Assembly (NCBI RefSeq): GCF_030644205.1
Contig: NZ_CP128647.1
Span: 806,001-870,000, forward strand
Source: Mogibacterium neglectum
GTDB taxonomy: Bacteria > Bacillota > Clostridia > Peptostreptococcales > Anaerovoracaceae
DNA: 64,000 nucleotides
Reading direction: 5' to 3'
Part shown: piece by piece, positions 12,541 to 19,050 of the stretch
Layout: each line of letters starts with the position of its first letter
How positions within the stretch are numbered: position 1 is the stretch's first letter
Translations under genes and position numbers: made by a program
Notes under the pieces: generated by a model
Database searches by the model: none
What the model saw: the letters and a program-made list of their open reading frames with translations, nothing else
Told to the model about the DNA's origin: nothing

Positions 12541-13362
12541 ATGCCAATGAATATAATTAAAATTGCTACTGTATATTTTTCACCAACAGGAACAACGAAA
12601 AAAGTTATTGACAATATTGTTAAGGGAATTGGCGGAGAAATAATTTATTCAATTAATCTGACTGAACGTGACAATAGAGAAAAAACTCAAAATCTGAGCT
12701 TTGATAATATAGATTTAATAATTTTAGGAGCTCCAATATATGGAGGTTTTCTGTATAAAGAATTCAGGAACTGTATTAAACACTTAAATTTTCAGAGGAA
12801 AAACGTAATTGCTGTTACACTGTATGGCAATGCATCAACCATGTTTGCTACTAAAGAATTGATATCAATAATAAGAAAAGGTGATGGAAAATTACTTGGG
12901 TATGGTGAGTTTGTTGGTGAACATTCATATTCCAGTAAATTTATTCCAGTTGCTAAAGGTAGACCAAATGAAGATGATTTACAGAAGGCAACCCAGTTCG
13001 GTGAGACGATAAGAGATAGATTAGCAAATATTGAGAGATATTTTTTTAGCAATAAAGTTAGTATGTCCGATAAAGTTATAAACTTTGTTGCGGATAATAA
13101 ACCTATACATACAGGAAAAAGAATATTTACTATTCCATATACAGATAACGAAAAATGCATCCGTTGTTATAAATGTATAAAAGCATGTCCTAAAAGCTGT
13201 ATAAAAGCAGATATAACAACTGATAAAGATGAATGTATAGTTTGTATGGCATGCGTTAAAATATGTCCGATAGATGCACGAATAGCTTATCCTAAAAATG
13301 CTATAGTTAAATTAGGATTACGGGTGATAAATAGAAGACGTCATGAATCATTGTTTTTTTGA
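12541..13362 (+). CDS. EFR1 family flavodoxin-ferredoxin protein
   Basis: The 273-residue protein has an N-terminal flavodoxin domain with the FMN loop FSPTGTTKK (residues 12-20) and a GAPIYGG flavin contact. A C-terminal 2[4Fe-4S] ferredoxin domain follows, with C206-x2-C-x2-C-x3-CP and a second C-x2-C-x2-C-x3-CP set ending ICPIDA. This fusion is the EFR1 type, common in anaerobes as a cytosolic electron carrier or reductase. AAGGAGA precedes the ATG. The gene is visibly richer in A/T-ending codons (ATA, AAA, TTA) than the ABC genes before it, which may indicate separate acquisition. No partner enzyme adjoins it. Confidence 0.85.
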   Translation: MPMNIIKIATVYFSPTGTTKKVIDNIVKGIGGEIIYSINLTERDNREKTQNLSFDNIDLIILGAPIYGGFLYKEFRNCIKHLNFQRKNVIAVTLYGNASTMFATKELISIIRKGDGKLLGYGEFVGEHSYSSKFIPVAKGRPNEDDLQKATQFGETIRDRLANIERYFFSNKVSMSDKVINFVADNKPIHTGKRIFTIPYTDNEKCIRCYKCIKACPKSCIKADITTDKDECIVCMACVKICPIDARIAYPKNAIVKLGLRVINRRRHESLFF

Positions 13363-15467: not shown

Positions 15468-15496
15468 TTGACAGCATAGATGTAATAATATATATT
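15468..15496 (+). promoter_or_regulatory. Consensus sigma-A promoter of the PNPOx/transporter/Rrf2 operon
   Basis: TTGACA at 15468-15473, a 17-base spacer and TATATT at 15491-15496 form a near-perfect housekeeping promoter. It lies about 70 bases ahead of the first gene and is completely overlapped by a palindrome, so it should be strong but repressible. Confidence 0.75.
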
Positions 15497-15507
15497 ACAT
15501 CTATGCT
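15473..15507. promoter_or_regulatory. Perfect 15-base palindrome overlapping the promoter (operator)
   Basis: The arms AGCATAGATGTAATA (15473-15487) and TATTACATCTATGCT (15493-15507) are exact reverse complements separated by five bases. The palindrome starts at the last base of the -35 box and runs past the -10 box, a classic repressor position. No T-run follows, so it is not a terminator. The obvious candidate repressor is the Rrf2-family gene at the end of the same operon. Confidence 0.7.
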
Positions 15508-15566
15508 AGTGTTAGAACACGTGGAGTTAACATAATTAACTTAAATGTTAAAAGGTGGGATAGGAA

Positions 15567-16175
15567 ATGAAAGCACAAGATTGTTTAGACATTTTAAGAG
15601 AGATTAAGGATGTAGCGTTTGCAACTGTTGATGAAAAGGGTAAACCACAGGTTAGGATAATCGATGTAATGATTGTTGAAGACGAAAAACTCTATTTCTG
15701 TACGGGACGCGGTAAGGATTTTCATAAGCAGCTAATAACTAAAGGTGACGTAGCCATCACTGGGCTTAATAAGAATTTTCAGATGATTCGTCTTGAAGGC
15801 GAGGCAAAAAAGGTTGAAGATAATAAGTACTGGATAGACCGAATTTTCGATGAAAATCCAGCTATGAATAGCGTATACCCAGAAAATAGCAGATATATCC
15901 TCGATGCATTTTACATAGATAATGGATTGATAGAATTTTTTGATCTTGGTAAGAATCCAATTAATCGATACAGCTTTTCAATTGGGGAGGATACAGTTAA
16001 AGGAAAAGGTTTCTTTATAACATCAACGTGTATCGGTTGTGGAAAATGTTTACACGGATGTCCACAGAAGTGCATTACAAAAGGAGAACCGTACGTGATA
16101 AATCAGGATCACTGTCTGCACTGTGGACTATGTTTCGAAAACTGTCCTGTGTCCGCAATCGAAAGAAGAGGGTAA
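15567..16175 (+). CDS. Pyridoxamine 5'-phosphate oxidase-like flavoprotein fused to a 2[4Fe-4S] ferredoxin
   Basis: Residues 1 to about 130 form a split-barrel FMN-binding domain of the PNPOx-like family (AFATVDEKGKPQVRIID, LYFCTGRGKDFHKQL). Residues 150-202 form a bacterial ferredoxin domain with CIGCGKCLHGCP and CLHCGLCFENCP. Proteins of this kind are putative flavin-dependent reductases that receive electrons through the clusters. The ATG follows AAGGTGGG by about eight bases. It is the first gene of the operon under the palindrome-covered promoter and is followed six bases later by the transporter. Coupling of a redox flavoenzyme to an uptake system suggests it processes the imported compound, which is inference. 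Confidence 0.8.
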   Translation: MKAQDCLDILREIKDVAFATVDEKGKPQVRIIDVMIVEDEKLYFCTGRGKDFHKQLITKGDVAITGLNKNFQMIRLEGEAKKVEDNKYWIDRIFDENPAMNSVYPENSRYILDAFYIDNGLIEFFDLGKNPINRYSFSIGEDTVKGKGFFITSTCIGCGKCLHGCPQKCITKGEPYVINQDHCLHCGLCFENCPVSAIERRG

Positions 16176-16181
16176 TATAAA

Positions 16182-17729
16182 ATGTTAAAAGAAATAGTAG
16201 AGCTGTTAACTACAAAAAAAGAATTTTTCTTAAAACTGTTATTGGAGCATATTGAAATTTCAATGTCAGCTATTTTGATTGCTATCATAATTGGTGGAAT
16301 GGCAGGAATATTAATAAGTGAGTACAGAAAAGCTGCAAAACCTGCTTTAAATATAATTAACTTTTTATATACAATTCCATCAATATCGATGCTTGGATTC
16401 CTTATTCCATTTTCAGGAATTGGTAATGTAACAGCTGTAATCGTTCTGTCGGTGTATGCATTACTTCCAATGGTTAGGAATACTTACACTGGTATGATAA
16501 ACGTTAATGAATCAATATTAGAAGCAGCAAAAGGAATGGGCAGTACCCGAGCTCAAACTCTTTTCAATGTTCAAATTCCTCTAGCGATGCCTGTGATTAT
16601 CTCAGGAATTAGAAATATGGCAACAATGACTATCGCACTTGCGGGAATTGCTTCCTTTATTGGCGCAGGAGGTCTTGGTGTTGCTATTTATAGAGGAATA
16701 ACGACCAATAATGCTGCTATGACTATATCTGGTAGTTTATTAATTGCTGGCTTAGCGCTTATTATCGATTTTCTTCTTGGTATCCTAGAAAAGAAAGTTT
16801 TGAGGAAATCTAAAAAAAAGAGCAATTTAAATATTAAAGTAATAATTACGATAGGTGTTATCGCGATTTCCCTAATAGCAGGAATTATAATTCCTAAACA
16901 TAATAATAAAATACGTTTAGCAACGAAGCCTATGACAGAACAATATATCCTTGGGGAAATCTTAAAACTTATGATTGAGAAAGATACAGATTTGGATGTT
17001 GATATCACTCAGGGCGTTGGAGGAGGTACATCGAATATAGAACCAGGTATGGAAAGTGGTGAATTTGATATGTATCCCGAATATACAGGTACTGGCTGGA
17101 ATATGGTACTAAAGAAAAAGGGGATATATACGGAAACTCGATTCCAAGAGCTTCAGAAAATGTATCAGTCAAAATTAGGACTAACATGGAATGTACTACT
17201 AGGATTCAATGATACGTTTGGCATTGGAGTTCGAAAGGAAATTGCCGATAAATATAATCTAAAAACATACTCTGATTTGAAAAAATTGAATGGGAAGTTA
17301 GTTTTTGGAGCAGAATATGATTTTTACGATAGAGAAGACGGTTATAACAAGCTTTGTAATGAATATGGGTTAACTTTTAAAAATACTAGTGATATGGATA
17401 TGGGACTAAAATATAAGGCAATAAATAGTGGTAAAATTGATATCATGCCGGTAAATACCACAGATGGACAACTTGCAAATTCTGATATTGTAGTACTAGA
17501 GGATGATAAAAAGATATATCCATCATACCAATGCGGAATTGTTGTACGCCAGGAGGTATTAAAAAAACATCCAGAATTAAGCAAATCTTTAAATAAACTC
17601 AGTGGGATTATAACCGAATCCGACATGCAACGGATGAATTACGAAGTCGAGAGTGAGAAAAAGGAACCAAAAGAGGTTGCCAAAGCATTTCTCATAAAAA
17701 AGGGACTTTTAAAAAATAAAACATCATAA
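16182..17729 (+). CDS. Quaternary-ammonium-type ABC transporter, fused permease and substrate-binding protein
   Basis: The 515-residue fusion has an OpuC-type permease (residues 1-210, coupling loop EAAKGMGSTRAQTLFNVQIPLA) and a C-terminal binding domain (about 245-515) anchored outside. The binding domain shows ATKPMTEQYILGE and the hallmark EFDMYPEYTGTGW. This permease/binding-protein layout occurs in glycine betaine/choline/carnitine importers and also in the ergothioneine transporter EgtUV (BilE in Listeria). The ligand cannot be settled by eye; the neighbouring redox flavoprotein and Rrf2 repressor make a thiol such as ergothioneine as plausible as an osmolyte. Its ATPase is encoded next. 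Confidence 0.85.
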   Translation: MLKEIVELLTTKKEFFLKLLLEHIEISMSAILIAIIIGGMAGILISEYRKAAKPALNIINFLYTIPSISMLGFLIPFSGIGNVTAVIVLSVYALLPMVRNTYTGMINVNESILEAAKGMGSTRAQTLFNVQIPLAMPVIISGIRNMATMTIALAGIASFIGAGGLGVAIYRGITTNNAAMTISGSLLIAGLALIIDFLLGILEKKVLRKSKKKSNLNIKVIITIGVIAISLIAGIIIPKHNNKIRLATKPMTEQYILGEILKLMIEKDTDLDVDITQGVGGGTSNIEPGMESGEFDMYPEYTGTGWNMVLKKKGIYTETRFQELQKMYQSKLGLTWNVLLGFNDTFGIGVRKEIADKYNLKTYSDLKKLNGKLVFGAEYDFYDREDGYNKLCNEYGLTFKNTSDMDMGLKYKAINSGKIDIMPVNTTDGQLANSDIVVLEDDKKIYPSYQCGIVVRQEVLKKHPELSKSLNKLSGIITESDMQRMNYEVESEKKEPKEVAKAFLIKKGLLKNKTS

Positions 17730-17784
17730 AAGAATTTCGATAATTTAAGTAAAAACGGTTTAAATAGATACATGAGGGAAGTTT

Positions 17785-18588
17785 ATGAGTACAGTAATTG
17801 AATTTAAAGATGTAAGTAAACGATATGGAGACAACATTGTTATACCAAATTTTAATCTTGCAATAGAAAAGGGAGAATTTGTAACCATTATTGGTTCGTC
17901 GGGTTGTGGTAAAACCACGATTCTTAAGATGATTAACGGACTCTATGAGCCGAGTGAAGGTGAAATCTTCGTAAACGGGGAGAACATAAGATATAAGGAT
18001 ATGATTGAATTGCGCAGAAGTATTGGTTATGCAATACAAGGCAGTATCTTGTTCCCACATATGAATGTTTCGCAAAATATATCATATGTACCACGTTTAT
18101 TAAATAAAAAAAATGTTGAGAAGACTGAGCAAGCTGTAAATAAATGGATGGATATTGTAGGTTTAGATCACTCCTTAAGGTATCGTTTTCCAGATGAATT
18201 ATCAGGTGGTCAACAGCAACGGGTGGGAATAGCCAGAGCATTGGCTGCATCTCCAGATATCCTTCTAATGGATGAACCCTTTGGTGCAGTGGATGCAATT
18301 ACACGAGCACAGCTTCAAGAAGAATTAAAATTAATTCATAAAAAAACCGACATAACAATATTCTTTGTGACTCATGATATTGAAGAAGCTTTGAAGCTAG
18401 GAACAAAGGTTCTAGTCATGAATCATGGAGAAATTGAACAATATGAAACACCAAAAGACATTTTGAATAATCCAGCTAGTGATTTTGTAATGAAAATGGT
18501 GGAAAAACAAAGAAGGTCATGCAATCTTCCTGATGATAGACTTGACGATTGCGAGTTCAGTGGGGCATCTTGTGGATTACTAGATTAA
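17785..18588 (+). CDS. ABC transporter ATPase for the fused permease (OpuCA/EgtV type)
   Basis: The 267-residue ATPase has Walker A GSSGCGKTT, the Q-loop region SIGYAIQGSILFPHM, signature LSGGQQQRVGIARAL, Walker B ILLMDEPFGAVD and switch histidine FVTHDIEEA, all typical of the quaternary-amine importer group. It is short: OpuCA-type ATPases usually carry two C-terminal CBS domains for ionic-strength sensing, and these are absent. Instead the last 25 residues hold three cysteines (C246, C256, C263) in an acidic tail. GAGGGAAG precedes the ATG. Absence of CBS domains argues against osmotic control. Confidence 0.85.
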   Translation: MSTVIEFKDVSKRYGDNIVIPNFNLAIEKGEFVTIIGSSGCGKTTILKMINGLYEPSEGEIFVNGENIRYKDMIELRRSIGYAIQGSILFPHMNVSQNISYVPRLLNKKNVEKTEQAVNKWMDIVGLDHSLRYRFPDELSGGQQQRVGIARALAASPDILLMDEPFGAVDAITRAQLQEELKLIHKKTDITIFFVTHDIEEALKLGTKVLVMNHGEIEQYETPKDILNNPASDFVMKMVEKQRRSCNLPDDRLDDCEFSGASCGLLD

Positions 18589-18621
18589 TAGGAAAAAAGA
18601 AGGAGTTATATAAAGATAGGT

Positions 18622-19050
18622 ATGCAAATTACGAGTAAATTTACAATAGCGATTCATATTTTAGCATGCATTGATTATTTCCATGGTAAGATTCCAGTAA
18701 ATAGCAAGCTTCTAGCTGAAAGTATAGGCTCAAATCCGGTGATTATTAGAGGTGTTATGTCATCTCTGAATAAAGCAGGAATAATCAATACTGAAAGAGG
18801 AAAGAGGGACGTATCTATACAAAAGGAGCTGGCGGATATCACATTTTATGATATTTATTTAGCTGTTGACCCTTTAAGCGATAATGGATTATTTCACTTT
18901 CACGAAAATCCAAATTTAAAATGCCCTGTAGGAAGTAAAATCCATATAGCTTTAGATGACAAGCTTGAAAGGGTAAAAGTTGCAATGGAAAATGAAATGA
19001 AAAGTATTTCAATAAAATCAATTATTGAGGATATTAAGGATGATATTTAA
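18622..19050 (+). CDS. Rrf2 family transcriptional regulator
   Basis: The 142-residue protein opens MQITSKFTIAIHIL and has the winged-helix features of Rrf2 proteins: SKLLAESIGSNPVIIRGVMSSLNKAGII is the recognition helix and wing region. Only two cysteines are present (C16 and C101, the latter in NPNLKCPVG), so it lacks the three-cysteine set that binds a [2Fe-2S] cluster in IscR/NsrR and is closer to the clusterless YwnA/CymR type. It is the last gene of the operon. The only strong SD (AAGGAG) lies 18 bases before the ATG, hinting at weak translation. Autorepression through the palindrome at 15473 is the natural model. Confidence 0.82.
   Translation: MQITSKFTIAIHILACIDYFHGKIPVNSKLLAESIGSNPVIIRGVMSSLNKAGIINTERGKRDVSIQKELADITFYDIYLAVDPLSDNGLFHFHENPNLKCPVGSKIHIALDDKLERVKVAMENEMKSISIKSIIEDIKDDI

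Follow-up and report, generated by a model that had tools for sequence, protein, structure and literature searches.

A perfect palindrome with a SifR-type operator core and a candidate redox-responsive operon for an ergothioneine-type importer in Mogibacterium neglectum

The stretch of DNA analysed here, referred to as the window, comprises 64,000 nucleotides of the 1.75-megabase genome of Mogibacterium neglectum (G000:C1:806001-870000), and contains a perfect palindrome followed on its 3′ side by four co-directional genes on the + strand. The first (15567..16175) encodes a flavoprotein of 202 amino acids in which a PNPOx-like domain is fused to two 4Fe-4S clusters (Pfam PNPOx_N and Fer4 families). 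The second (16182..17729, 515 amino acids; BPD_transp_1 and OpuAC) fuses an ATP-binding cassette (ABC) permease to a binding domain of the quaternary-amine or ergothioneine type, the architecture of EgtU and OpuF. The ABC ATPase of the importer (17785..18588, 267 amino acids; ABC_tran) comes next, and the set ends with an Rrf2-family regulator of the YwnA/SifR type (18622..19050, 142 amino acids; Rrf2 PF02082), with a putative sensor cysteine, Cys101, in the sequence HENPNLKC. The intergenic gaps are 6, 55 and 33 base pairs (bp). An earlier, sequence-only reading of the window had assigned the operon this content, and the Pfam domains agree with it.

The palindrome (15473..15507, no strand assigned) is a 35-bp inverted repeat and a probable Rrf2 operator. 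Its 15-nucleotide arms, 15473-15487 and 15493-15507, are 100% complementary and separated by a 5-nucleotide spacer. No other perfect inverted repeat in the window combines arms of 15 or more nucleotides with a spacer of at most 10, and a search for its own pattern with up to three mismatches finds nothing else there (100 shuffles average 0.00 matches). When nested offsets of one repeat are tallied separately, the window holds five repeats with arms of at least 12 nucleotides, compared with 0, 0 and 0 in three dinucleotide shuffles. The repeat is thus far beyond chance. The sequence-only reading had the palindrome covering a promoter, which is true in part. The predicted promoter TTGACA-N17-TATATT (15468..15496, + strand; 11 of 12 consensus matches) has its -10 element within the palindrome, and the repeat spans the last base of the -35 element, the spacer, the -10 element and the probable start point, but not the whole of the -35 element. 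It is the top scorer of 20 promoter-like sites in the window. Since that number is at chance level (shuffle mean 19.6), the weight of the prediction rests on its place and its overlap with the palindrome.

How general is this arrangement? A scan of species genomes yielded 247 relatives of the fused protein, and we analysed the best 80 of them together with the window, 81 loci in all; the sample is non-random, and some loci end at contig edges, so that co-occurrence counts there are lower bounds. The hosts include Lachnospiraceae, Baileyella, Hornefia, Longibaculum, Sharpea, Olsenella and C. difficile. The transporter is patchy in the window's own family, with a match at E ≤1e-30 in 48 of 197 genomes and a single-chain match of at least 51% identity in only seven family genomes besides its own; among the other genomes of the genus, one of three has a match at E ≤1e-30, at 37% identity. 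Relatives of the ATPase adjoin the permease in 80 of the 81 loci, and PNPOx-ferredoxin relatives are present in 65. Rrf2 relatives occur in 23 loci and an HxlR regulator in 24 (Rrf2 alone in 22, HxlR alone in 23, both in 1 and neither in 35), while a ferredoxin-nitroreductase is found in 12. The claim that Rrf2 is the last gene holds for the window, and the same layout, with Rrf2 directly 3′ of the ATPase, is seen in L086, L091, L126, L134 and L148. As a general rule it fails, as the gene can precede the operon, follow it or stand away from it, or an HxlR gene may be present instead.

Across the regions upstream of these relatives, the shared sequence is limited to TGTAA and TTACA at a distance of nine bases, with variable flanks and spacer. 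The core TGTAA-N9-TTACA lies at 15481..15499 in the window (no strand assigned). With the Rrf2 gene required within 5 kilobases, the 81 loci divide into 21 with Rrf2 (window included), 23 with HxlR and 37 with neither, and the exact core is found between -2500 and +100 of the permease gene in 14, 0 and 9 of these, respectively. At control spacings of 3-8 and 10-15 there is no match in the Rrf2 group (0/21), one in the HxlR group (spacing 6) and three in the group with neither (spacings 3 and 5); dinucleotide shuffles give a mean of 0.05 loci and a maximum of 1. Allowing one mismatch raises the counts to 20/21, 4/23 and 13/37, and other spacings then score 1-8 of 21. A second sample of 29 Rrf2 neighbourhoods in genomes of the family, collected by the Rrf2 protein and not by the transporter, has the exact core in 19 (shuffle mean 0.14), 16 among the closest 20 neighbourhoods and 3 among the remoter nine; other spacings give none except one at spacing 4. 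At the level of its core, the palindrome upstream of orthologous loci does go with an Rrf2 gene, as the earlier reading anticipated. The half-site is another matter. The GATG/CATC core suggested by that reading is not what relatives keep, conservation being confined to TGTAA/TTACA, and an NsrR-like site was rejected too, since its half-site AAGATG differs in spacing. TGTAA-N9-TTACA is given as the operator of both S. aureus HypR and S. pneumoniae SifR in the portion of PMC9218516 that we consulted. The operator assignment is well supported by these comparisons, and is the firmest part of the mechanism proposed below.

The window has a single recognisable TGTAA/TTACA site. Paired sites exactly 26 bp apart, the second matching with at most one mismatch, precede the operon in L081, L086, L124, L140 and L146. 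Across the whole M. neglectum genome there are 11 exact copies of the core, compared with 4 for a reversed control. Ten of these 11 places were examined: the long palindrome is present at the window's site only, two others (L150 and L159) are intergenic, and the remainder lie within reading frames. A wide regulon in this genome was rejected on these grounds, and further targets are possible but weak.

The regulator has the Rrf2 fold (PF02082, E 4.2e-24), and its nearest solved relative is YwnA (1xd7, E 2.1e-27). PMC9218516 places SifR and B. subtilis YwnA among the single-cysteine Rrf2 proteins, their cysteine lying in an HxxPNPxC motif where helix 5 begins; in the window protein the second proline of this motif is replaced by leucine. 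Its only cysteines are 16 and 101, with none near 33. Cys101 is kept in all 23 aligned Rrf2 relatives and Cys16 in 10 of them, and by its sequence the protein belongs with the single-cysteine YwnA/SifR kind. Modification of the SifR cysteine by quinones causes SifR to leave the DNA, according to the same source (PMC9218516), and on that basis we propose an electrophile as the signal for the window regulator. The association of the core with the Rrf2 gene, together with the invariant sensor cysteine (23/23), suggests that the regulator is most likely a repressor released by electrophiles or oxidants. The self-repression put forward in the sequence-only reading is thereby supported as the likely circuit. 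The HxlR proteins share a cysteine at one column of their alignment in 23 of 24 cases, and the redox-regulator models RrpB and RrpA match one representative with scores under their cut-offs. Just beyond the left end of the window, G000:C1:803181-803573 encodes a further Rrf2 protein, at 35% identity.

The importer has the architecture of EgtU, a permease fused to a cluster F-III binding domain and accompanied by a separate ATPase. The best solved relative of the binding domain is 8dp6 (E 1.1e-71), which we take to be H. pylori EgtU (HpEgtU), followed by the best chain of pneumococcal EgtUC (3.1e-54); osmolyte-binding proteins are far lower. Window and HpEgtU are identical at 121 of 264 aligned residues. 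In the pocket, with positions mapped by alignment and the register confirmed by the relative L061, which is gapless against solved pneumococcal EgtUC (SpEgtUC), 12 of 17 tabulated positions are identical to HpEgtU, the differences being at 251, 284, 344, 346 and 425. Most other loci of the group differ at only 251, 284 and the non-contact position 450 of those tabulated. According to PMC9732360, proteins of the same cluster from H. pylori have a part in ergothioneine uptake, at a lower affinity.

The strongest argument on the ligand comes from another genome of the same family (G097). In L160:4090-8691 the operator, Rrf2, a macrodomain gene, SIR2, an EgtUA ATPase and a fused EgtUBC follow one another on one strand, and the transporter (L065) agrees with SpEgtUC at every one of the 13 tabulated contacts but one (12 of 13), where it has Leu for Ile243. 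This gene order and this pocket indicate that an EgtU with the ergothioneine signature probably takes the place of the window-type importer under the same regulator. The link is not strict. L161 combines a macrodomain and an ATPase with this EgtU type and has no Rrf2 match nearby, and L162 and L163 have such transporters without these neighbours. The best guess for the window, resting on these comparisons, is ergothioneine or a similar thione. No EgtD match (ergothioneine biosynthesis) was found in the M. neglectum genome, a weak test in which control genomes also all fell below the cut-off.

Macrodomain and sirtuin genes are frequent around the relatives. SIR2 occurs in 30 of the 81 loci and a macrodomain in 22, both families being identified by Pfam, and the two are found together downstream of the importer in L083, L111, L123, L127, L132, L143, L149 and others; SIR2 and/or macrodomain genes are also found in 11 of the 29 Rrf2 neighbourhoods. 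The macrodomain representative passes the model for protein-ADP-ribose hydrolase (380.5 against 272 bits). The sirtuin representative has weak matches to general deacylase models only; that it is probably of class M is suggested by its pairing with the macrodomain, an arrangement known from PMC4518038 and PMC11490716. A SIR2 search of the M. neglectum genome gave no match, and the sirtuin/macrodomain pair is therefore outside the window's system. In three related contigs from metagenome-assembled genomes (L107, L116 and L117) the importer is followed by genes for a nitroreductase, SIR2 and a DUF5131 protein.

The flavoprotein resembles PNPOx-related proteins in its N-terminal half (2hhz, E 6.3e-14; NimC/NimA 2ig6, E 9.1e-7) and ferredoxins with two clusters in its C-terminal half. 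Among 53 aligned relatives the eight cluster cysteines are invariant or nearly so, and residues of the flavin fold are conserved too. We infer that the protein may reduce electrophiles or an oxidised import product. Of the uptake-and-reduction system proposed in the sequence-only reading, the redox flavoprotein and the fused importer are supported, and reduction of the imported compound is a candidate role. An EFR1-family flavodoxin-ferredoxin protein is encoded near the operon, at 12541-13362 (NCBIfam 81.8 against a cut-off of 75 bits).

Our analysis suggests a self-repressed uptake operon that is inducible by electrophiles or oxidants, to which as a whole mechanism we give a probability of about 0.6. 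The reduced Rrf2 dimer would bind the palindrome and block RNA polymerase, until a quinone, hypochlorite or a similar electrophile modifies Cys101 and the repressor leaves, whereupon importer, flavoprotein and repressor would be made together. The importer, with its HpEgtU-like binding domain fused to the permease and its ATPase, would take up ergothioneine or a close thione or quaternary amine as a redox buffer. The PNPOx-ferredoxin would pass low-potential electrons through its two 4Fe-4S clusters to the flavin, for reduction of either the import product in its oxidised form or the electrophile itself, such as a quinone, nitro or azo compound. Many relatives add to this set a sirtuin paired with a macrodomain, nitroreductases or a SnoaL protein, and a cysteine-bearing HxlR regulator can stand in for Rrf2.

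Several observations weigh against this interpretation. The exact core is lacking from seven of the 21 Rrf2 loci, mostly in Olsenella-type Coriobacteria, and is found in the nine loci noted above that have no nearby Rrf2. The regulator is not a HypR equivalog, scoring 49.6 bits with the NCBIfam HypR model (cut-off 180) and having no Cys33/Cys99 pair. The window lacks the two published ergothioneine markers, with Met251 in place of Gly244 and Tyr301 in place of Phe293, as do all the loci of the group (Met in 81/81, Tyr in 81/81); it keeps five of 14 SpEgtUC contacts (the equivalents of Lys242, Thr275, Thr296, Arg379 and Tyr443), and its subclade has an aromatic cage altered from that of HpEgtU (Asp344, Phe346, Asn425). 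The palindrome, being a perfect inverted repeat, might instead act as a hairpin or attenuator and not as a site for protein binding. Relatives, however, keep just TGTAA-N9-TTACA while flanks and spacer change, the repeat overlaps the promoter, no T run follows it and the leader structure is nothing unusual (z -0.83), all of which makes a hairpin very improbable.

The transporter might import an osmolyte such as glycine betaine, choline or carnitine, as in the OpuF/OpuC type, and have acquired its redox regulator by happenstance. OpuAC and ProV-like models do match, and PMC9732360 notes the same lack, of Gly244 and of the Tyr-to-Phe switch, in C. difficile OpuF and the other anaerobe sequences of a middle subcluster, for which it considers a different quaternary amine as a possible ligand. 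Yet all three transporter parts fall short of the NCBIfam osmolyte cut-offs (OsmF 106/400, ProW 95.9/439 and proV 279.9/326.6 bits), solved osmolyte-binding proteins score far under 8dp6, and redox genes are the partners and regulators across the 81 loci, so that an osmolyte importer seems unlikely. Alternatively, the window's subclade might import some other redox-active compound, perhaps non-quaternary or dietary, such as a thione, a thiourocanate-like product or a nitrogen heterocycle. Members have Asn425, mostly Asp344 and often Phe346; the Asn425 clade is monophyletic (18 rows, support 0.999; about 15 organisms, three rows repeating genomes already present), and the change at the three cage positions is concerted. 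Against this, the subclade does not differ from other members of the family in neighbours or operator, and cage changes by themselves are no proof of a new ligand; the idea is possible, if doubtful. We favour the redox-inducible uptake operon, in which the importer is probably of ergothioneine type and its exact ligand the weakest part. The sequence-only reading had thought ergothioneine-like thiols as possible as betaines. An ergothioneine-like thiol remains reasonable; the redox regulators, and the EgtU with the ergothioneine signature that occupies the same place in L160, speak against an equal standing for betaines.

A broader picture can be offered quite tentatively. Gut-type anaerobes might possess an electrophile-inducible thione salvage regulon under a SifR-type sensor, combining EgtU-like uptake, a ferredoxin-flavoprotein that reduces or recycles the thione or electrophile, and ADP-ribosylation by SirTM and zinc macrodomain, with the pocket of the window's subclade remodelled for a ligand other than ergothioneine. 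We found no paper that treats macrodomains together with ergothioneine in the open-licence PubMed Central (PMC) literature. PMC9732360 leaves the ligand of the EgtU-like importers in anaerobes unsettled, and for these the operon offers a specific signal, an operator and a partner enzyme that can be put to the test. Likewise SirTM/zinc-macrodomain pairs without lipoate genes, the targets of which the literature describes as unknown, are placed beside an ergothioneine-type importer under one regulator, making their role testable.

How do these loci compare with known systems? The closest sequence match of the window binding domain is H. pylori EgtU (8dp6/8dp7), which is not known to have a PNPOx-ferredoxin or Rrf2 partner. 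In regulation the nearest counterpart is the SifR/egtU system of S. pneumoniae (spd_1642-1645; PMC9218516 and PMC9732360, both consulted in part), which like the window has an Rrf2 repressor with one conserved cysteine and a TGTAA-N9-TTACA operator. The pneumococcal egtU operon is partly SifR-regulated and has a SnoaL2 gene (PMC9732360), and a SnoaL protein is likewise encoded in five of the 81 loci. Unlike the pneumococcal system, the window has the Rrf2 gene within the operon, a PNPOx-ferredoxin fusion as the first gene and an HpEgtU-like binding domain, and the hosts are anaerobes of Clostridia, Erysipelotrichia and Coriobacteria. S. aureus HypR, a hypochlorite sensor, shares the operator and the Rrf2 fold, but uses Cys33 and Cys99 (PMC9218516) where the window protein has Cys16 and Cys101.

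The sequence-only reading had put the system forward as its main candidate for an undescribed one. That is too strong for the regulatory part, which is well supported by sequence and already known in kind, the operator being published for HypR and SifR (PMC9218516) and control of egtU by SifR being reported in pneumococcus (PMC9732360). What is new is the cis-encoded Rrf2 layout, the conserved ferredoxin-flavoprotein, the exchange of one thiol regulator for another and the presence of sirtuin/macrodomain pairs at the same loci, and this combination of recognisable parts looks largely undescribed. For the last of these the comparison is with the SirTM/zinc macrodomain operons of PMC4518038 and PMC11490716, in whose main text the word 'transporter' occurs 0 times. 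As described in the parts that we consulted, those operons resemble the relatives here in placing the sirtuin beside a PRK04143-type protein-ADP-ribose hydrolase, and in their link to oxidative stress and flavin enzymes. The partners differ, lipoate genes in the SirTM operons being replaced in the relatives by an EgtU-like importer and the PNPOx-ferredoxin.

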